NCBI GenBank assembly: GCA_002282015.1
Contig: NCIJ01000001.1
Location: 248,001-312,000 of the forward strand
From: Sulfuricurvum sp. 17-40-25
GTDB taxonomy: Bacteria; Campylobacterota; Campylobacteria; Campylobacterales; Sulfurimonadaceae
DNA: 64,000 nt
Direction: 5' to 3'
A model generated the notes under the pieces. The model made no database searches and was not told the origin of the DNA. It saw only the letters and a list, made by a program, of their open reading frames with translations. A program made the translations under genes and the position numbers. How positions within the stretch are numbered: position 1 is the stretch's first letter; every line of letters starts with the position of its first letter. This document shows positions 5,300-16,338 of the stretch, piece by piece.

Positions 5300-5995
5300 A
5301 TGGAAAGAAGAGATTTTATGGCATTAAGCGCTGCTACTTTAGCAAGCGGATTAACAGCTGCCACTGCAGCCGATACGGTATCCACACCTGCACCTAGAGC
5401 AGTTCAAGGCGAGTTATTGGTTGCGAAACCACTCCCGTTTGACCCAAAAAGTCTCGACGGGATCTCCAAGAAAATGATCGTATCCCACCATGACAACAAT
5501 TATGCGGGAGCCGTCAAACGTTCACGCGCTATTGAAGAAAAAATCGTAGCTCTTAGCAGTTCTGCTAACCCGTTTGAATTTGGTGCACTCAAGCGTGAGC
5601 AAATGGTTGCACTTAACTCGATGATCTTGCATGAATACTATTTTGATGCTCTTGGAGCTGCTGGAACGATGAACAGTAAACTAAAAAGCATGCTTGAATC
5701 CTCGTTTCGTACCGTAGGCGAATGGGAAAATGAGTTTAAAAAAATCGCACTCTCCCTAAGTGGCGGATCGGGATGGGTATTTTTGGTTTACAATGAGCGA
5801 CTTAAACGCCTTGAAAACGTTTGGTCATGGGATCATATGCACAGTCTATGGGATTCTAAGATCATTTTGGCATTGGATATGTACGAGCACTCGTATCAAA
5901 TGGATTTTGGTTCCAATGCAAAAGGATACCTAGATGCGTTTTTCAAAAATATTAACTGGAATGTAGTAAACACCCGAATAGGTGCTATAGCTTAA
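5300..5995 (+). CDS. Exported Fe/Mn superoxide dismutase-like protein
   Basis: 231 residues. It begins with a twin-arginine-like leader (MERRDFMALSAATLASG) ending near an Ala-rich cleavage region about residue 24, so the product is probably exported to the periplasm. The SOD fold follows, with all four expected metal ligands by alignment from memory: His63, His111 (ILHEYYFD), Asp193 and His197 (LDMYEHSYQMDFG), plus GSGWVFLV. The canonical second-shell residues just after the first ligand are changed (HHDNNYAGA, where SodB has HYGKHHQTY). The gateway His30 and Tyr34 equivalents appear to be Asn67 and Ala71. It has an AAGGA ribosome site and overlaps the siroheme gene tail to tail by 11 bases. 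Confidence 0.85.
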   Translation: MERRDFMALSAATLASGLTAATAADTVSTPAPRAVQGELLVAKPLPFDPKSLDGISKKMIVSHHDNNYAGAVKRSRAIEEKIVALSSSANPFEFGALKREQMVALNSMILHEYYFDALGAAGTMNSKLKSMLESSFRTVGEWENEFKKIALSLSGGSGWVFLVYNERLKRLENVWSWDHMHSLWDSKIILALDMYEHSYQMDFGSNAKGYLDAFFKNINWNVVNTRIGAIA

Positions 5996-6542
5996 AAAAA
6001 TCACGGCATATGCCGATGATTTTCTCCTGTCTCTCTTTTCCTACACTCTCAGTTTGACGAATTTTATGGACACGTTCTATTAGATCATGAACACCTTGCG
6101 GAATGAGCTTGGTCAAAAACTGCCGCAATGCAGAACTAACAGCAGGGGCTTTACCCGATGTATTGATTCCAATACATAAATCCCCCTCAACAATCAGCGC
6201 TGGGAAGATAAACGAACACAAAAGCGGTGAATCAACACAGTTGACCGGTGTTTTGGTTTTTATACATGCTGTGTATATCTTCTCTTGTTCTCCTATATCG
6301 TCCAATGCCCCTATGACCAAAAAACGATTATCACAATCCTCAATCTTGTACTCACGCTCTAGCAAAACAATCTTGTGTACATCACTCAATGTTCTGATCT
6401 CATCGTGAATAACGGGTGCGATAACCGTTAGTTTTGGTATAAATTTAACCAACTGCTCAAGCTTTCGTAAAGCAACTTCACCTGCACCAATCACAACAAT
6501 ATCTTGTTCTTTCAAATCCACAAACATGGGAAAAAGTGCCAT
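5985..6542 (-). CDS. Precorrin-2 dehydrogenase / sirohydrochlorin ferrochelatase-like (CysG-N/Met8 family)
   Basis: 185 residues, the usual size for stand-alone CysG-N/Met8 proteins. An N-terminal Rossmann motif (VVIGAGEVALRKLEQL, about 15-30) binds NAD. The middle has VNCVDSPLLCSFIFPALI and INTSGKAPAVSSALRQF, both typical of the family. It oxidises precorrin-2 to sirohydrochlorin and may insert iron, giving siroheme for NirA encoded nearby. I chose ATG at 6542, preceded by AAGGG, over the TTG one codon earlier. The partner cobA is on the other strand, about 0.8 kb away, with a toxin-antitoxin-like pair in between. Confidence 0.9.
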   Translation of the reverse strand: MALFPMFVDLKEQDIVVIGAGEVALRKLEQLVKFIPKLTVIAPVIHDEIRTLSDVHKIVLLEREYKIEDCDNRFLVIGALDDIGEQEKIYTACIKTKTPVNCVDSPLLCSFIFPALIVEGDLCIGINTSGKAPAVSSALRQFLTKLIPQGVHDLIERVHKIRQTESVGKERQEKIIGICRDFFKL

Positions 6543-6559
6543 CAAAAACCCTTTTTAAG

Positions 6560-7306: not shown

Positions 7307-8086
7307 ATGATGAATGGCTCTCTTTACTTGATCGGATGCGGACCCGGTGATGCCGATTTACTCACCATCAAAGCACTGAAGACCATCCAAAAGCTCGATG
7401 TCGCTCTCATCGATCATTTACTCACCCAAGAGATCATTGATTTGATTCCGACATCGACCAAAGTGGTATTCGTCGGAAAAGAAAAAGGAGCTCACAGCTC
7501 AACCCAAGATGAGATCAACATCATCATAGCATCGTATGCTCTGCAAGGCTTACGTGTCGGACGTCTCAAATGCGGTGATCCCTATATCTTCGGTCGAGGA
7601 ACCGAAGAAGCCATCTATGCTATGGAACGTAACATTCACACTGAAGTGATTCCAGGTATTTCTTCTGCCCTCAGCGGTCCCTTAAGCGCAGGTATCGCTC
7701 CAACCGCGCGAGGTTATGCAACAGGGATGTCGGTCGTATCTGCACATCTGGCAGGAGATCGTGTAAACTTAGGCTGGATACCGCTTTTGGGTATGCCCAG
7801 TCATACTACGATCTTATTGATGGGACTAAGCCGTGCCGAACAAATCACCACAGAAGCACTGCAACAGGGGATCAACCCCTCTATGAGCGTTGCCATCGTT
7901 TCCAATGCGACCAGTGCAAACCAAAGTACGATTATCACCACCCTAAACGATCTGGCAAGTGCCGCTAAAAAAGCGCCCAAACCTGCTATTATGATTTTTG
8001 GCGATGTGGTCGCACTCGAATCTAAACTTCCAAAATACATCCATGAGATCAAGGAGACTACCCATGACATCGCTAATGCAGGCTAA
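7307..8086 (+). CDS. cobA: Uroporphyrinogen-III C-methyltransferase
   Basis: 259 residues, the size of a single-domain SUMT. It has LIGCGPGDADLLTIKA at the N-terminus (SAM site), GRLKCGDPYIFGRGTEE near 85-100, and PGISSALSGPLSAGI near 120. It methylates uroporphyrinogen III twice to precorrin-2, which the CysG-N-like protein at 5985-6542 converts onward to siroheme for NirA. ATG at 7307 follows AGGAAAAA; a second ATG is the next codon. It is the first gene of the plus-strand nitrate operon, and nirA begins 23 bases before its stop. Confidence 0.93.
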   Translation: MMNGSLYLIGCGPGDADLLTIKALKTIQKLDVALIDHLLTQEIIDLIPTSTKVVFVGKEKGAHSSTQDEINIIIASYALQGLRVGRLKCGDPYIFGRGTEEAIYAMERNIHTEVIPGISSALSGPLSAGIAPTARGYATGMSVVSAHLAGDRVNLGWIPLLGMPSHTTILLMGLSRAEQITTEALQQGINPSMSVAIVSNATSANQSTIITTLNDLASAAKKAPKPAIMIFGDVVALESKLPKYIHEIKETTHDIANAG

Positions 8087-9962
8087 TGAAGCACGTAGCG
8101 CCAAGCGCCATAAAATCGAGACGATCAAAGATTCTTTTAGCGCTTCCGAAGCATGGGATCGACTGATCGGTTATTCCAAAACAGGATACGACTCCATCAC
8201 CGAGGAAGACAAAGATTTCGTCCTCAAAAGCTTCGGCGTCTTTGACCGTCCTGCTACTCCTGGACGATTTATGATCCGCGTACGTGTGCCAGGCGGAATT
8301 TTAAGCGTTGAACAAGCCCGTGTTTTAGCCGATGTCGCAAAACGCTTTGGAAAAGACTACATCGACATCACCACCCGCATGCAAATCGAACTGCGCTACG
8401 TCACCATCGAAGAGTTGCCCGAAGCACTGGCTCTTTTAGAAAGTGTAGGTCTCACCAGCTATCAAACAGGTGTCGATAATTTTCGCAATATCATCATCGA
8501 TCCGCTCGATGGTTTGGCGATGGACAACATAATCCCATGTGTACCGATTATGAACGAGATCCAAGCCGTATTTTTGAAAAACGAAGACTGGATCACCACC
8601 ATGCCGCGCAAGTTCAATATCGGACTCAGCGGTTCTCTCACCAACCGCTGTAATATCTTCGGTCAAGATTTTGCCCTAGCCCTCGCACAAAAAGACGGTG
8701 TGTATGGGTTTAACCTCTTTTTAGGAGGTCGTGTCGGATTTTTGGCACAGGATGCCAATATGTTTGTCACTCCTTCACAAGCCAAAGACGTATTTGTGGC
8801 CGTTGCAAGTCTCTTTAAGACCTATGGATTCCGTGATAACCGTAACAAAAACCGTCTCAAATTTCTTATAGACGCCGTAGGGATGGATGAGTTTCGCGAT
8901 GCGATTGAAAAACAGCTTGGTTTCGCGATGCATTCTAGCGGCGAAACCCTTTGTGCGGCAGAGGGTGGAGACTATTACGGTAAAATTGCTCTAAAAGACG
9001 GAAGCTTTGCTCTGTACGCAGCCGTTCCTAGCGGTGTGTTCAGCGGAAGCGATTTAGCCGATGCCGCAGAGGTTGCCGCTGCGCAAGATGGAGCATTGCG
9101 TTTTACCATCGAGCAAAACCTCATCATCACAGGTATTCGTGATGAGTCAGCAGCTCTTGAGTCCCCATTGTTTGTCAAATACCCTAACCGACCATCCCCG
9201 TATATGGCAAACCTCATCGCGTGTGCCGGAACGGAGCATTGCCCCTTTGGTGTTATCCCCAACAAGCCTGACGCCATTGAGATGGGGGAGTATCTAGCGC
9301 GTGAAGTGCCTATTACGGATGCCAAAATGCGTCTGTACTGGTCTGCGTGTATTAAAGGATGCGGAATCCACGGTGCAGGCGATTTAGGCTTTGTAGGGTG
9401 CAAGACCCCGCATAACGGTGTCACCGTACTGGGTGTTGACATCTTCATCGGCGGAACGCTTAGCGGTGAGGGAGGAGAGGGACATCTGCTCCTAAAAGGA
9501 ATCGTACTTGAACATGCTCGTGAATACGTAGCCGAACTCATGCGCCAATATCGCGATCAGCGTATCGGAAAAGAGAGTTTAGAAAAGTTTATCGCCCGTT
9601 TGCAAGTACGCTACAGCAATCACGCGATCGGTTTTTTGATGCGTTGGAATCGTTTGATGCGTTTGCAAAACACTCCCGATGGTATGTTTTCCTTTAATCT
9701 CAAGAAACACGGCGGTTCACACCGTGAGATCGATGAGATATTTGAGTTTGGAACCAAAATTATTCACGGTATCACCGGTACAAATCCCTACGATACCGAC
9801 GAACCGTTGGCCGAAGAGAAAAAAAGCTACCGTCACAAAGCACCAGAGCTTTCAGAGTATGCTCATATTTTAGAAAAAATGGTCGAACCAAGCCCTCTCA
9901 AACGCTCTGAGGTCTTTACCCAAATCGTCGTCGAACTCAAAAATCTAAGCAGTGACCAGTAA
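8064..9962 (+). CDS. nirA: Ferredoxin-dependent assimilatory nitrite reductase (siroheme, [4Fe-4S])
   Basis: 632 residues. Two nitrite/sulfite reductase half-domains are visible. The cluster/siroheme cysteines are Cys387, Cys393 (CAGTEHC), Cys429 and Cys433 (CIKGC). It reduces nitrite to ammonium in the cytoplasm with six electrons from ferredoxin. I chose ATG at 8064 over a longer open frame from 7998, because AAGGAG at 8051-8056 is ideally spaced and the earlier part would overlap cobA by 89 bases. About 70 residues beyond the usual C-terminus (from about 560) are unassigned. It is translationally linked to cobA and followed at once by the DmsBC-like gene. Confidence 0.93.
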   Translation: MTSLMQANEARSAKRHKIETIKDSFSASEAWDRLIGYSKTGYDSITEEDKDFVLKSFGVFDRPATPGRFMIRVRVPGGILSVEQARVLADVAKRFGKDYIDITTRMQIELRYVTIEELPEALALLESVGLTSYQTGVDNFRNIIIDPLDGLAMDNIIPCVPIMNEIQAVFLKNEDWITTMPRKFNIGLSGSLTNRCNIFGQDFALALAQKDGVYGFNLFLGGRVGFLAQDANMFVTPSQAKDVFVAVASLFKTYGFRDNRNKNRLKFLIDAVGMDEFRDAIEKQLGFAMHSSGETLCAAEGGDYYGKIALKDGSFALYAAVPSGVFSGSDLADAAEVAAAQDGALRFTIEQNLIITGIRDESAALESPLFVKYPNRPSPYMANLIACAGTEHCPFGVIPNKPDAIEMGEYLAREVPITDAKMRLYWSACIKGCGIHGAGDLGFVGCKTPHNGVTVLGVDIFIGGTLSGEGGEGHLLLKGIVLEHAREYVAELMRQYRDQRIGKESLEKFIARLQVRYSNHAIGFLMRWNRLMRLQNTPDGMFSFNLKKHGGSHREIDEIFEFGTKIIHGITGTNPYDTDEPLAEEKKSYRHKAPELSEYAHILEKMVEPSPLKRSEVFTQIVVELKNLSSDQ

Positions 9963-9963
9963 T

Positions 9964-11535
9964 ATGAGCGATACCCCGACACCGCTGGAATCGTTCATCG
10001 GCTACAAAGCCGATACCGGGATGCAATGCGGAAACTACTCCATCGACGTTCCACCCCTCAAAGAGGGAGAACAGTACCGATTTCATTTTGATGCAACCAA
10101 ATGCGTCGGATGCCGCTGTTGTGAAGTCGCGTGCAATGAACAAAACAACAATCCAGCCGATATAAAATGGCGCCGTGTAGGAGAGATGGAGGGGGGAAGT
10201 TTCCCAGACACCCTGCTGCTGTTTAACTCCATGAGCTGTAACCACTGTGTCGATCCTGCCTGCCTCATCGGGTGTCCTACCAACAGCTACATCAAATTCG
10301 ACAACGGCATCGTCTTCCACGATGATCCCAGCTGTATCGGATGTCAATACTGTACCTGGAACTGCCCATACGGTGTACCCACCTACCACGAAGAGCGTCA
10401 CATCGTCACCAAGTGCCATATGTGCCACGAACGTCTCGCAGTAGATCAAAGCCCGGCGTGTGTTCAAGCATGCCCATCAGGTGCTATCGAGATCGAAGCG
10501 GTGAACATTCAAGAATGGATGGAAAAAGATATTGATGATTTAGGAAACATGCCTCATCTAGCCGACGCACGTTTAACCAACTCCACTACCCGTTTTACCT
10601 TGCCAGAAAATATGCCCCTGGAGATGCTAAAAGCCGATGAACATCATCTCAAACCCGCTCACGGTGAACTGCCACTGGTCTTTATGACGGTATTGACTCA
10701 GATGTCACTGGGTGCTTTTGGTGCACTGTTTATCGGCGATATCCTCTCACTGTTTGGATTTTTTAAACCCAACTGGATGTTAGCACTACTGGCTCTTATT
10801 CCTGCCGCTCTTGGATTGCCTTTATCCGCACTGCATCTTGGGCGTCCTCTCAAAGCTCTGAATGCAATGAAAAATCTCAAAACCAGCTGGCTGAGCCGTG
10901 AAGCCGCTGCACTGGGTGCGTTTGCAGGACTGATGAGTATTAATGTCGCTTTGTATTTTTTCGATATCTCGACAGTGTTCCGTTTGGGTTTTGAGCTCTT
11001 GACGCTCTTGGTCGGCATCTACGGCATCCATGCCCAAGCGATGATCTACCGTATCCCTGCCCGTCCTTCATGGGATCGGTTTTCGACCAATCAAAAGTTC
11101 TTTACGACAGCCTACAGCGGACTGTTTCTGATCTCATTGGCATTGATTATTGCTGGTTCCAGTGATTCGGCTACGCCGCTTTTGAGCAGTGCGATGATAC
11201 TTGCAGTTATCCATGGCTTTTTTACCCTCGGCGGATACAATGAACTCAAATCATCACCAACACCGCAATTGCAAAAGACGTTACGTCTCTACCGTGAGCA
11301 TTTTCCTGTTATTCATAGCTTGCGCTGGATCATGTTTAGCATAGGGGCATTGGTCTTGCCATTATTGGCAACTTTGTTTATCGCATCTGATCTTACAATC
11401 CCAGCGATTATCACATTGGGCATTGGCTTTGTGCTATTGGTCTGCAGTGAACTCATGGATCGATTCTTATTCTACACCACAACCGTTCCTCTACAAATGG
11501 CAGGCGGATTTTTTGTCGGTGCACAAAGGAATTAA
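9964..11535 (+). CDS. Fused DmsB-like four-cluster ferredoxin and DmsC-like membrane anchor
   Basis: 523 residues from ATG at 9964; a GTG four codons earlier (9952) is an alternative that overlaps nirA. Residues about 40-190 hold four [4Fe-4S] cysteine groups: CVGCRCCEVAC, CNHCVDPACLIGC, CIGCQYCTWNC, and CHMC with CVQAC. Residues about 230-520 form eight or so hydrophobic helices of DmsC/YnfH type. DmsB and DmsC are usually separate genes; here they are one chain. It is placed between nirA and narB with two bases to narB, so it likely passes electrons from membrane quinol through the clusters to NarB on the cytoplasmic side (inference). Confidence 0.85.
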   Translation: MSDTPTPLESFIGYKADTGMQCGNYSIDVPPLKEGEQYRFHFDATKCVGCRCCEVACNEQNNNPADIKWRRVGEMEGGSFPDTLLLFNSMSCNHCVDPACLIGCPTNSYIKFDNGIVFHDDPSCIGCQYCTWNCPYGVPTYHEERHIVTKCHMCHERLAVDQSPACVQACPSGAIEIEAVNIQEWMEKDIDDLGNMPHLADARLTNSTTRFTLPENMPLEMLKADEHHLKPAHGELPLVFMTVLTQMSLGAFGALFIGDILSLFGFFKPNWMLALLALIPAALGLPLSALHLGRPLKALNAMKNLKTSWLSREAAALGAFAGLMSINVALYFFDISTVFRLGFELLTLLVGIYGIHAQAMIYRIPARPSWDRFSTNQKFFTTAYSGLFLISLALIIAGSSDSATPLLSSAMILAVIHGFFTLGGYNELKSSPTPQLQKTLRLYREHFPVIHSLRWIMFSIGALVLPLLATLFIASDLTIPAIITLGIGFVLLVCSELMDRFLFYTTTVPLQMAGGFFVGAQRN

Positions 11536-11536
11536 T

Positions 11537-13831
11537 ATGTTCAATAGCATCAAAAACTTTCTAGGTCTGGACATCAAAACCGCTAAGTATGCCATGAGCG
11601 ATGATCCGATGTTTGGCCGTATCAGCGATGCCAAAAAACCGGACAAATGGGTCTTTTCTACGTGCGGATACTGCGGGGTTGGATGCGGATTGTACATCGG
11701 GGTAAAAGATGGACGTGCCGTCTATACCAAAGGCAACTCGGCTCACAGTGTCAACATGGGAACCCTGTGTCCCAAGGGATTGAGCGAACACGAGATGATC
11801 ACCTCCTCCAATCGTATCTTGGCTCCGATGAACCGTAAAAATGGAAAACTGCAAAACACCACGTGGGACGATGCCTTCACCCAAGTCTCTGTAAAATTCA
11901 AAGAGATCACAAACACCTACGGTGCCCAAGCCATCGGGGTCATCTCAACGGGACAACTGCTCACCGAAGAGTTCTATACGCTGGGTAAACTCGTCCAGCT
12001 TGGTCTGCGTACCAACAACTACGATGGTAACACGACGCTGTGTATGGCATCGGCTGTTATGGGGTACAAACAATCTCTGGGTTCGGATGGTCCAACGGGG
12101 TCGTATGAGGATTTCGAGCATGCCAATGTCATCGTCTTGGTCGGCGCTAACATCTCCGATAACCACCCTATCCTCAAACTGCACATCGAGAAAAATCCCA
12201 ACAAACCCAAGATCATCGTTATCGATCCGCGTAAATCCAAAACCGCTCAGATGGCCGATATGTTTATCCCACTCAAACCGCGTACCGATTTGGCGCTTTT
12301 TAATGGTCTAGCCTACATCATCCTCGAGCAAGGATGGGAAAACAGTGAGTATCTCAAAGCCAATGTAACAGGCTTAGGTGATCTACGCAAACATCTCGAA
12401 AACTATCCTCCCCAAGAGGTCGCCAACATCACGGGTATCGATGTCAAGACTCTCTATGAGATCGCACGCTCTTACGCATCCTCCGACGCGGTACTGAGCG
12501 CATGGACGATGGGGGTCAATCAATCGTACATGGGAACCGATACCGTCAGTGCCATCGTCAACTTACATCTGCTCACGGGACAAATCGGTCGTCCGGGAGC
12601 CGCACCGTTTTCCATCACGGGACAGTGCAATGCGATGGGAACACGCGAGACAGGGTTTACCTCCTCACTACCGGGATACCGCAACTATGGCGATGAAAAA
12701 GCGGCGCAAGAATACGCCAACATCATCAATGTACCACTGGATATCATCCCTCGTCAGCGTGGCTACAAATACGGTGAGATCATCGAAGCCATCGAGCGTG
12801 GCGAGATAAAAGCACTGTGGGTAGTCGCTACCAACCCACTGGTGAGTTTCGTCAACCAAGACCGCCTGCGCAAAGCACTGGCCAAACTTGAGTTACTGGT
12901 CGTCCAAGACGCGTTTATGTCCGATACGGCACAACTCGCCGACGTCATCTTCGCTGCGGGGACGTGGGGCGAAAAAGAGGGAAGCTATACCAACAGTGAG
13001 CGCCGATGCAACCGTACGAACAAAGCGGTCAATCCTCCGGGAACCGCTAAAAGTGATTTTGATATCTTCCTGGAGTTCAGCAGTTATTTTCAAGGGGTTC
13101 AAGAGATGCTGTATCCCAACTGGCAATCCCCCGCCGATGCGTTTGAAGAGTGGAAGCGTGTCAGCCGTGGGCAGCTGTGTGATTATTCAGGGATTACCTA
13201 TGAGATGCTCGAAACGCATGGTGGGATTCAATGGCCGTGTAATGAACAGTTCCCCCTAGGCTCCCCGCGTCTGTACACTCCCGACATCGCATTTCGCACC
13301 ACCGATGGCAAAGCCAAATTATTGCCTCTGGAATGGATACCACTTCAAGAACCAACAGGTGAGAAATTCCCGATCATCCTCAACACAGGACGCACCGTAG
13401 AGCAGTGGCACACCCGTACCAAAACGGGCGACATCGGTATACTCAACGATTTAGCACCCGAAGCGTGGGTCGATATCAATCCCGCGGACGCATTGGCGCT
13501 GGAAGTCAAAAGCGGTGATCGCCTCAGTATCAGTTCAGCACGGGGACGTGTGGATGACATCGTGGTTCGTGTAACCCAAACGGTACGTGAGGGAGATGTG
13601 TTTGTTCCCTTTCATTTTAACACCCAGCTTATCAACCAACTCACCGCCAGCAGTTTTTGCCCAAAATCAGGAGAGCCAAACTACAAACAAACCGCTGTAC
13701 AGTTACACTCAGTCAAAGTTCCATCAGGTATCGTGATGAAATCCCCTGAAATAAGCGGGACACTGTCGTGTGAGAACAATCAGTCACCAACTCACCATAC
13801 GCTAAATGTTACTAATATGCACACCAAGTAA
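11537..13831 (+). CDS. Assimilatory nitrate reductase catalytic subunit (NarB/NasA-type molybdoenzyme)
   Basis: 764 residues starting at ATG 11537, with AAAGGA just before. The N-terminal [4Fe-4S] site is Cys43, Cys46, Cys50 and Cys78 (CGYCGVGC, then LCPKG). Cys169 (TLCMASAV) is the expected Mo ligand of the bis-MGD cofactor. GRTVEQWHTRTKTG near residue 615 is typical of this subfamily's C-terminal cofactor domain. There is no twin-arginine leader, so it is cytoplasmic, and no C-terminal [2Fe-2S] domain as in Klebsiella NasA. It reduces nitrate to nitrite for NirA. The likely electron donor is the neighbouring DmsBC-like fusion rather than a NasB flavoprotein, for which no gene is seen. Confidence 0.92.
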   Translation: MFNSIKNFLGLDIKTAKYAMSDDPMFGRISDAKKPDKWVFSTCGYCGVGCGLYIGVKDGRAVYTKGNSAHSVNMGTLCPKGLSEHEMITSSNRILAPMNRKNGKLQNTTWDDAFTQVSVKFKEITNTYGAQAIGVISTGQLLTEEFYTLGKLVQLGLRTNNYDGNTTLCMASAVMGYKQSLGSDGPTGSYEDFEHANVIVLVGANISDNHPILKLHIEKNPNKPKIIVIDPRKSKTAQMADMFIPLKPRTDLALFNGLAYIILEQGWENSEYLKANVTGLGDLRKHLENYPPQEVANITGIDVKTLYEIARSYASSDAVLSAWTMGVNQSYMGTDTVSAIVNLHLLTGQIGRPGAAPFSITGQCNAMGTRETGFTSSLPGYRNYGDEKAAQEYANIINVPLDIIPRQRGYKYGEIIEAIERGEIKALWVVATNPLVSFVNQDRLRKALAKLELLVVQDAFMSDTAQLADVIFAAGTWGEKEGSYTNSERRCNRTNKAVNPPGTAKSDFDIFLEFSSYFQGVQEMLYPNWQSPADAFEEWKRVSRGQLCDYSGITYEMLETHGGIQWPCNEQFPLGSPRLYTPDIAFRTTDGKAKLLPLEWIPLQEPTGEKFPIILNTGRTVEQWHTRTKTGDIGILNDLAPEAWVDINPADALALEVKSGDRLSISSARGRVDDIVVRVTQTVREGDVFVPFHFNTQLINQLTASSFCPKSGEPNYKQTAVQLHSVKVPSGIVMKSPEISGTLSCENNQSPTHHTLNVTNMHTK

Positions 13832-13920: not shown

Positions 13921-16338
13921 ATGAATAGTAAAAGTCAGTCAACTCTTTTATCCCGCTACTTTACCTTCATCCTCCTTTTTTTCACACTTCTGGTTCTGGT
14001 TTCAGCAATCTGGAATATGCAACATATCCAAAACCACATAGAAGAACTTGCCAAAATTGAAGCAACAACCCATCTTAATCGAGATAAAGCATTTCGTTTG
14101 TGGGCGACTCGTCATGGCGGAGCGTATTTCATCGTTGATAAAAACACCCAGCCAAGTCCCTTTATGGCTATGGTCGAAGATCGCGATGTAACCACCTCAA
14201 GCGGTAAGACACTCACTCTCTATAATCCTGCCACCATGCTACGCGACATTATGCACGACTATTCAAACCTCTACGATATCAAAACACGCATTACAGCCAA
14301 ACTCTATATGAATCCCCAAAATGCCCCGGATGCATGGGAATCCAACGCATTGGAGAAACTCCAAAACGGTGAGACACAAGTCGAAGAATTTACCATGATG
14401 AAGGGGAAAAAACACCTGCGGCTTATGCAACCTATGTACATGGAACAAGGGTGTATAAAATGCCATGCATGGACCGGGATCAAGGTCGGTGAGGTTCGTG
14501 GGGCAATCGATGTTGCTATTCCTCTGGATAAATACGACCCGATAAAAAAGGAACACTTTCAACAGCTGATCATCACCCATCTCCTCCTTTGGCTCATCGG
14601 AATGGGAGGTATCTTGTTTCTAGGACGCCGACTGCTCTCGAGTGTTCGCGAAAACGATAAAAATCAAAAAGACTTAGACATACGCACCCAGGCACTCGAG
14701 CAAAGCAATAATGCTGTTCTCATAACCAACCCAAAAGGCGTTATTGAATACGCCAACCAAGCCTTCGTTCAGCTTAATGGATATGAGCTTATTGAACTCT
14801 TGGGGAAAACACCAAAAGTAGTGAAATCTCACCTCAATACTCCTGCTTTATACCGCGAGATGTGGTCTACTATTTCGGATGGAAGAACCTGGAAAGGTGA
14901 GTTCAAAAATCGAAAGAAAAACGGTGCCATCTACTGGTGTTACGAAACCATATCCCCAGTCATGGACACCGATGGAAAAATCACCCATTACATCGCGGTG
15001 ATCGAAGATATCGAAAAACGTAAAACTACCGAGGAGCATATTAAACAGCTGGTCCACTATGATGCTCTCACCAACCTACCAAACCGTCATTATTTCAAAG
15101 AAAAATTGGATGCCCATATCATTCAAGCCTGCAAAGAAAATAAGGTATTTGGGCTTATCTACATTGATTTGGACCGCTTTAAAATGGTCAACGACTCTTT
15201 AGGGCATACCGTAGGTGACACTCTGCTGCAAACCTTAGCGGAACGTTTACTTTTAATTGATGGACATAAAACCTTTGTCTCCCGTTTTGGCGGTGATGAA
15301 TTTGCAATTATTACCGATTTTACTGATACACAACACCCCATAGAGATGTTTATCGAAAGGATTCATGACGCTATTAAAGAGCCGTTTTTTATCGCAGGTG
15401 ACGACATTTTCATGACGGCTAGCATGGGAGTATCACTCTATCCACAACACGGTGATGATGCCGAATCACTGATCAAAGCATCGGACATCGCTATGTACGG
15501 TGCAAAACTTCAGGGGAAAAATACCCATCTGTTTTTTGAACCCATACACGGCGATTTTGCGAATGAAACCCTTATGATCGAAAATGGTTTACGAAAAGCC
15601 ATGATCAACAATGAGCTGTTCCTCGTCTACCAACCAAAATGGGACAGCAAAGCAAATAAATTCCTAGGCTTGGAAGTGTTAGTACGATGGAAAAGCCCGA
15701 CATTGGGATTCATGAATCCGATGCGATTTATCACCATTGCCGAAGAGACTGATCTTATCATCGTCTTGGGTGAATGGATATTAAAAGAATCTTTGATAAC
15801 GATGATGGAAATCTCAAAAATCATCGGTTTTGTCCCAAAAACATCGGTCAACCTTTCTCCTGTACAATTCCGTCATAACAACTTGAACTCTATGGTCATA
15901 GAGCTGCTGGAACAAACAGGGTTTCCTCCGCAGCAGTTGGAGCTTGAGATCACCGAAGGTGCCCTTGTCAACGATCCTGCCATGGCGATTGAGAAAATGA
16001 CAGACTTATGTTCCCATGGCGTCACCTTCTCCATTGACGATTTTGGTACTGGCTACTCTTCTATGTCGTATCTCAAAAAATTCCCGGTCTCGACACTGAA
16101 AATCGACAAGTCTTTTGTCGATGACATCATCGATGATCCGCATGACAGAGCGATCATCCAAGCGATTATTACACTGGCAGAATCCTTTGGCATTAACACG
16201 ATTGCTGAGGGAACCGAAACGCGCGAGCAAGTTGATGCGCTCAATTCCCTCGGCTGTTATGCTGTCCAAGGCTATTGGCACAGCCGCCCTATTGACTATG
16301 AAGCATTGCTTCTTTATTTCCAAAATATACAGCAGTAA
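13921..16338 (+). CDS. Haem-binding (Tll0287-like/DUF3365) sensor with PAS, GGDEF and EAL domains
   Basis: 805 residues. Two membrane helices (about 13-33 and 218-238) frame a periplasmic Tll0287-like domain that contains one c-type haem motif, CIKCH, at 178-182. Then come a PAS/PAC (about 255-375), a GGDEF domain with an intact signature at 457-461, and an EAL domain (about 545-805). In the EAL domain the signature is EVL rather than EAL, while IDDFGTGYSSM and IAEGTETRE are kept. Synthase activity looks possible; phosphodiesterase activity is likely but less certain. It is the first gene of a signalling operon with Hpt, receiver and hybrid-kinase genes, directly after narB. Confidence 0.88.
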   Translation: MNSKSQSTLLSRYFTFILLFFTLLVLVSAIWNMQHIQNHIEELAKIEATTHLNRDKAFRLWATRHGGAYFIVDKNTQPSPFMAMVEDRDVTTSSGKTLTLYNPATMLRDIMHDYSNLYDIKTRITAKLYMNPQNAPDAWESNALEKLQNGETQVEEFTMMKGKKHLRLMQPMYMEQGCIKCHAWTGIKVGEVRGAIDVAIPLDKYDPIKKEHFQQLIITHLLLWLIGMGGILFLGRRLLSSVRENDKNQKDLDIRTQALEQSNNAVLITNPKGVIEYANQAFVQLNGYELIELLGKTPKVVKSHLNTPALYREMWSTISDGRTWKGEFKNRKKNGAIYWCYETISPVMDTDGKITHYIAVIEDIEKRKTTEEHIKQLVHYDALTNLPNRHYFKEKLDAHIIQACKENKVFGLIYIDLDRFKMVNDSLGHTVGDTLLQTLAERLLLIDGHKTFVSRFGGDEFAIITDFTDTQHPIEMFIERIHDAIKEPFFIAGDDIFMTASMGVSLYPQHGDDAESLIKASDIAMYGAKLQGKNTHLFFEPIHGDFANETLMIENGLRKAMINNELFLVYQPKWDSKANKFLGLEVLVRWKSPTLGFMNPMRFITIAEETDLIIVLGEWILKESLITMMEISKIIGFVPKTSVNLSPVQFRHNNLNSMVIELLEQTGFPPQQLELEITEGALVNDPAMAIEKMTDLCSHGVTFSIDDFGTGYSSMSYLKKFPVSTLKIDKSFVDDIIDDPHDRAIIQAIITLAESFGINTIAEGTETREQVDALNSLGCYAVQGYWHSRPIDYEALLLYFQNIQQ

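Follow-up and report, generated by a model that had tools for sequence, protein, structure and literature searches.

The assimilatory nitrate reductases known at present take their electrons from soluble ferredoxin or NAD(P)H: the cyanobacterial-type NarB uses ferredoxin, and NasA and NasC use NADH via NasB or a Fer2_BFD domain. All of these are cytoplasmic, have one [4Fe-4S] cluster and a Cys-ligated molybdenum (Mo), and are encoded in clusters with nirA or nirBD, narK and a kinase gene. NarGHI reduces nitrate with quinol on the cytoplasmic face of the membrane, but it does so in electrogenic respiration with an unrelated b-haem anchor and an Asp-ligated Mo. In E. coli DmsABC and the complex iron-sulfur molybdoenzyme (CISM) family to which it belongs (PsrABC, TtrABC), a subunit with one [4Fe-4S] cluster and Mo-bis(pyranopterin guanine dinucleotide) (Mo-bisPGD) is combined with a four-cluster B subunit and an eight-helix DmsC/NrfD-like anchor. 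No member of the clade that holds the assimilatory and periplasmic nitrate reductases, arsenite oxidase and the cytoplasmic formate dehydrogenases was found to have four-cluster or anchor subunits (PMC7331816), and NasC, NasA and NarB were kept as cytoplasmic enzymes in a later study (PMC10100899). We analysed a 64,000-nucleotide stretch of Sulfuricurvum sp. 17-40-25 (contig NCIJ01000001.1, positions 248,001 to 312,000; "the window" below) in which narB directly follows a gene for a DmsB-DmsC fusion protein, and we infer with good confidence that the two products form a two-polypeptide membrane complex that carries electrons from menaquinol to nitrate, electroneutrally, for assimilation. The portions of Campylobacterota genome papers that bear on NarB list it as ferredoxin-nitrate reductase or plain assimilatory nitrate reductase and mention no partner there (PMC5401914, PMC4288042), and searches confined to open-licence papers turned up none that describes the pair.

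The DmsB-DmsC fusion protein

The gene order on the + strand of the window is cobA, nirA, DmsB-DmsC fusion, narB, and the fusion gene is separated by 1 bp from nirA and by 1 bp from narB. We call the NarB encoded here type I, and the stand-alone NarB of other members of the phylum type II. The features of the pair are as follows:

9964-11535, + strand: DmsB-DmsC fusion, a single chain of 523 amino acids (ATG at 9964 to TAA at 11535) with a four-cluster ferredoxin domain and an eight-helix DmsC/NrfD-type anchor
10072-10503, + strand: DmsB-like domain with four [4Fe-4S] motifs (16 Cys)
10666-11475, + strand: DmsC anchor domain, eight transmembrane helices (Pfam PF04976, E 8.7e-22; E. coli DmsC alignment; AlphaFold2 helices)
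11537-13831, + strand: type I NarB, 764 amino acids, nitrate-type active site (ATG at 11537, stop ending at 13831; Mo-ligand Cys169; no twin-arginine translocation (Tat) leader, no Fer2_BFD)
11537-11644, + strand: residues 1-36 of type I NarB, its N-terminal extension, with conserved IKDFLGxDIK...DDPxFG

An alternative GTG start at 9952, upstream of the ATG, would give a fusion of 527 amino acids. The original prediction, made from the letters of this DNA, had placed one gene with four [4Fe-4S] sites and a DmsC-like anchor between nirA and narB, and the reading frames, coordinates and domains bear this out: a single chain matches DMSO_dmsB at E 1.6e-44 and, over residues 239-508, Pfam DmsC at E 8.7e-22. 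The cluster motifs (numbered from the GTG start) are C51/54/57/61, C96/99/104/108, C128/131/134/138 and C155/158/170/174, and among 95 aligned relatives, one of which is cut at its start, these 16 Cys are invariant (94-95 of 95 by column). Two further Cys outside the four motifs, C26 (at 10027, upstream of the DmsB-like domain) and C56, are kept in 94 of the 95 fusions, the remaining one being the sequence cut at its start.

The anchor half is modelled by AlphaFold2, as a single chain, as eight helices with high predicted local distance difference test (pLDDT) values; a fold comparison gives it weak matches (E 2e-3 to 6e-3), to ACIII subunit C and PsrC. In E. coli DmsC, His65 is needed for quinol oxidation, which its mutation blocks, and the quinone site takes in both His65 and Glu87 (PMC8076601). 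By alignment these correspond to His295 and Glu317 of the fusion, both invariant in 95 of 95 sequences. The protein thus has both the four-cluster ferredoxin subunit with 16 Cys and the eight-helix NrfD/DmsC-type anchor with quinol residues that characterise a CISM/DmsABC-type complex, with the difference that B and C are here on one chain. Relatives were found as 336 stretches in genome contigs, the best 80 of which are near-complete fusion genes, apparently all of Campylobacterota (two cut by contig ends), so the fusion is not a chance artefact; the nearest named relatives among these best 80 of 336 are Sulfuricurvum metagenome-assembled genomes, whose fusion proteins are 86-90% identical to the one here.

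Type I NarB is a separate lineage

In type I NarB a domain search found Fe4S4, molybdopterin and dinucleotide-binding domains but no Fer2_BFD, in line with the earlier claim that the C-terminal [2Fe-2S] domain is missing, while the same search placed Fer2_BFD at residues 899-950 of a conventional NasA used as control. Nor is there a NasB-type or other flavoprotein donor gene near narB, also as predicted. Both the LCMASAV motif, which carries the Mo ligand, and the GVNQS...PFSITGQCNAMG segment are as in NasA and NapA and unlike formate dehydrogenases: the Mo-ligand pair is C-M, and the formate dehydrogenases compared have C-H or C-Q. The best solved relative, both by sequence (PDB) and by fold, is the Desulfovibrio periplasmic nitrate reductase Nap, whose Cys-ligated Mo and C-M motif it shares; unlike type I NarB, however, periplasmic NapA is Tat-exported and receives electrons from periplasmic partners, and a NapA-type enzyme with a Tat leader is encoded separately in the same genome. 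Where type I NarB has its ligand Cys, E. coli DmsA has none, and type I NarB is not a DmsA-type catalytic subunit but belongs to the Nap/Nas/formate dehydrogenase branch.

Is it then simply an ordinary NarB that has lost its [2Fe-2S] domain? The trees speak against this. In a tree of 29 rows type II NarB groups with NasA (99/99) and type I NarB lies across that branch, outside the classical NasA group; in an earlier tree made without type II, 16 type I members formed one clade (100/100). These trees have few taxa, their rows from outside the Campylobacterota come from plasmids and E. coli, and no cyanobacterial sequence is included. The NCBIfam scores, 493 and 477 bits, lie under the cut-offs for NasC (1100) and haloarchaeal NasA (1000), and the top match, also under its cut-off, is to the formate dehydrogenase alpha subunit (Fdh-alpha). 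On the tests made, type I NarB, with an active-site motif of the nitrate type and a place among nitrate-assimilation genes, would therefore function like an assimilatory nitrate reductase and yet fall outside the classical NasA/NarB clade.

The N-terminal extension is a candidate docking element. The idea that it is unique to type I was weakened, because Deinococcus- and actinomycete-type enzymes are also long at the N-terminus, though type II NarBs have no extension. Two plasmid-borne "nitrate reductases" of Rhodococcus and Streptomyces (L147:3881-6346 and L148:3893-6358) have lost the N-terminal [4Fe-4S] Cys (SATILHSNGD), which is retained in close relatives from Deinococcus, Hymenobacter and Halomonas.

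Predicted membrane orientation

With helix positions taken from the AlphaFold2 model, the fusion loops on the DmsB-domain side have on average 12.7 Lys+Arg and never fewer than 9, against an average of 0.43 and at most 2 in the loops of the other side, and the bias has the same direction in all 95 fusion sequences. E. coli DmsC, by its own hydropathy helices, gives 4 versus 8, the direction opposite to that of the fusion, and 2 versus 2 when mapped onto the fusion alignment. No twin-Arg motif is present upstream of the Cys motif in any of 74 NarB relatives, in agreement with the earlier claim that NarB has no Tat leader, and the fusion has no such leader either. Because of the positive-inside charge bias and the lack of a Tat leader on both proteins, the iron-sulfur face of the fusion is predicted to be cytoplasmic, opposite to that of E. 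coli DmsC, and the cytoplasmic placement originally proposed for the pair gains support from it. The Tat-exported arrangement of E. coli DmsABC, with its periplasmic redox face, was thus not found here.

The fusion accompanies type I NarB and not NirA

The distribution was examined in 249 Campylobacterota genomes and in plasmids of other phyla. The fusion is present in 27 of the genomes and type I NarB in 26, all within those 27 (Fisher p 2e-34 across all genomes and 1.6e-10 within the 42 that are nirA-positive; both values are descriptive only, since shared ancestry is ignored). At 80 named fusion loci NarB lies within 400 bp downstream in 48 and further downstream in 13; of the remaining 19, 10 are cut short by the contig end and 9 offer enough sequence yet no NarB. 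Within flanks of at most 6 kb, NarK-like genes occur at 52 of these loci and the kinase at 34. The pair is kept even without close linkage: 50 kb separate the two genes in G015 and about 4 kb in G221, and they lie on different contigs in G003 and G047. In G238 NarB is split across two contig ends, one of them close to the fusion. Six genera (g1, g2, g9, g16, g32 and g49) mix genomes with and without the pair, the fusion and type I NarB being absent together, so gain or loss has been repeated and concordant. In plasmids of other phyla no fusion match exceeds 60% identity; three records cover 80% of the query, and none is shown paired with NarB.

Genomes with the other NarB provide a natural control. 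Strict NirA matches occur in 42 genomes, 27 with the fusion and 15 without, and 13 of these 15 have a stand-alone type II NarB, usually beside nirA or a few kb from it. The other two, G126 and G199, have strict NirA and neither NarB type was found in them; they may assimilate nitrite only. Type II NarB, about 660-670 amino acids long where its frame is complete, occurs in 16 genomes in total, which include G234 (both types) and G203 and G122 (no strict NirA); the NarB types of G234, G203, G122, G044, G224 and G004 were assigned from the search table alone. Type II NarBs (G217, G143 and others) have the same gene cluster and the same presumed reaction as type I but are only about 29-35% identical to it, begin right at the Cys motif, and have neither its N-terminal extension nor its C-terminal tail. 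At those type II loci that were read, narB is again surrounded by the transporter, kinase, cobA and nirA genes and there is no fusion gene; one of the type II carriers belongs to the same genus as the genome of the window. A strict threshold had at first suggested that the fusion goes with each NarB of the phylum, which was corrected once type II was found. All 26 genomes with type I NarB have the fusion, the 15 genomes whose only NarB is stand-alone lack it, and no other donor was found. Because genomes whose cluster holds only type II NarB have no fusion, the fusion tracks type I NarB and not NirA or nitrate assimilation at large. The sole genome with both types, G234, has type II NarB at 99444-101420 and type I NarB at 111526-113799 of contig C49, about 10 kb apart, possibly a snapshot of NarB replacement.

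Proposed mechanism and alternatives

We propose that menaquinol binds in the DmsC half next to His295 and Glu317 and is oxidised there. The electrons would travel by way of the DmsB half, with its four [4Fe-4S] clusters, and then the N-terminal [4Fe-4S] cluster of NarB, five clusters in all, before they reach Mo-bisPGD. With the whole iron-sulfur/Mo side facing the cytoplasm, as predicted, nitrate imported by the NarK-type transporter would be reduced inside the cell and NirA would take over the nitrite. In this anchor family quinone binds close to the iron-sulfur side. Protons would hence leave the quinol and be taken up again on one and the same side, with no net charge movement. From the known physiology of sulfur- or hydrogen-oxidising autotrophs, in which electrons come in at the level of quinone, the pair would act as a biosynthetic drain on the quinone pool and so save ferredoxin and NADPH, a role unlike that of DmsABC and other CISM enzymes.

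Several observations weigh against this proposal. A covariation scan between the two proteins over 60 fusion/NarB pairs gave no usable interface signal, and the DmsB half is poorly modelled by AlphaFold2 (pLDDT below 50). In one genome, G208, the fusion is present, about 1 kb from a contig end, and no type I NarB was found at E 1e-10. In addition, NirA looks ferredoxin-dependent; ferredoxin is hence present and could also reduce NarB. A different explanation would make type I NarB a soluble enzyme of the ordinary kind, dependent on ferredoxin, and give the fusion another partner, for example NirA, whose gene is directly upstream in the window; the stand-alone NarBs of the phylum indeed occur without a fusion. 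NirA can be discarded as that partner because nirA often occurs without the fusion: 15 of the 42 strict-nirA genomes lack it, as against no type I NarB genome, and NirA of the same family works in the fusion-free genomes. DmsB-type subunits elsewhere partner Mo enzymes of the DmsA/PsrA kind (PMC8076601), and type I NarB has extra N- and C-terminal segments where type II has none. We consider this explanation very improbable on the whole.

A respiratory (dissimilatory) role for the enzyme, as a nitrate reductase that faces the cytoplasm, is similarly improbable. Respiratory enzymes typically have quinol-linked anchors, and the NrfD-like anchors that have been reviewed belong to energy-transducing complexes (PMC8076601); the gene cluster, however, holds nirA, sirohaem genes, narK and the PP2C/kinase gene, type I NarB takes the place of the stand-alone NarB in it, the genome has the separate NapA-type enzyme, and the expected position of the quinol site would make the reaction non-electrogenic. 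Nitrate assimilation as the function of such a cluster is indicated by a beta-proteobacterial plasmid locus with a like gene set, in which an MFS (major facilitator superfamily) transporter, kinase/phosphatase, nirBD, nasA and cobA occur together. That NarB is misnamed and its Mo subunit acts on formate or another oxyanion has, if anything, a still slighter chance. The sub-threshold Fdh-alpha match, the unreached NasC and NasA cut-offs and the tree position outside the classical NasA clade would fit it, but the C-M motif, the best PDB and fold match to a nitrate reductase, and the near mutual exclusion of types I and II in nitrate-assimilation clusters all argue for nitrate.

The original suggestion of a quinol-fed assimilatory NarB unlike the textbook enzymes is thus favoured by the co-occurrence, the predicted face and the retained quinol residues, and has to be narrowed insofar as the phylum also has a second, conventional NarB that goes without the fusion. 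It also seems likely to us that menaquinol-driven, electroneutral, cytoplasm-facing nitrate reduction constitutes a third class of assimilatory nitrate reductase, in which a separate NarB lineage and an inverted one-chain DmsBC replace the soluble NarB in the same cluster across Sulfuricurvum, Sulfurimonas, Sulfurovum and relatives. Many sulfur-oxidising Campylobacterota would then appear to start nitrate assimilation with an enzyme linked to the quinone pool, and such an enzyme would spare chemolithoautotrophs uphill electron transport for 2 of the 8 electrons per nitrate. The pair would be a counter-example to the generalisation that the Nas/Nap/cytoplasmic formate dehydrogenase branch never has four-cluster or anchor (CISM) partners (PMC7331816), and its DmsC-type anchor is predicted to be reversed. 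Same-genus relatives carry one or the other NarB type in the same cluster and so offer a natural comparison that is ready to hand.

Other genes of the locus and genome

The other nitrate-assimilation genes in the window are as follows:

8064-9962, + strand: nirA, ferredoxin-type sirohaem nitrite reductase (NIR_SIR, NIR_SIR_ferr)
7307-8086, + strand: cobA/sumT, uroporphyrinogen-III C-methyltransferase (sirohaem for NirA; model match above cut-off)
5985-6545, - strand: CysG N-terminal-type precorrin-2 dehydrogenase (sirohaem pathway; TIGR01470 above cut-off)
61-531, + strand: 3' part of the gene for a PP2C-phosphatase/Ser-Thr-kinase, next after narK, the two genes being for the most part upstream of the window

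The best NCBIfam-type model for NirA is ferredoxin--nitrite reductase, with a score below its cut-off. The genes for the NarK-type MFS transporter and the PP2C-phosphatase/Ser-Thr-kinase occupy contig positions 245591-248532, the latter ending at window position 531.

The only Fer2_BFD proteins found genome-wide are a hydrogenase-fused flavoprotein, a 356-amino-acid NifU-like frame and a 74-amino-acid Bfd-like frame, of which only the first was read. It has 807 amino acids (L168:4243-6666, on contig C34 of the same genome) and is an FAD/NAD(P)-type reductase apparently fused to a [NiFe]-hydrogenase small-subunit-like domain; its neighbours are a hydrogenase large subunit gene and a maturation protease gene, and many genomes of the genus hold Fer2_BFD frames of similar length.

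Adjoining narB on its 3' side (window 13921-16338) is a gene for a GGDEF-EAL protein with PAS and Tll0287-like domains. At window 5300-5995 Pfam finds the C-terminal domain of Fe/Mn superoxide dismutase only, and the Tat-like N-terminus (MERRDFMALSAATLASG) suggests that the product is an exported superoxide dismutase-like protein.

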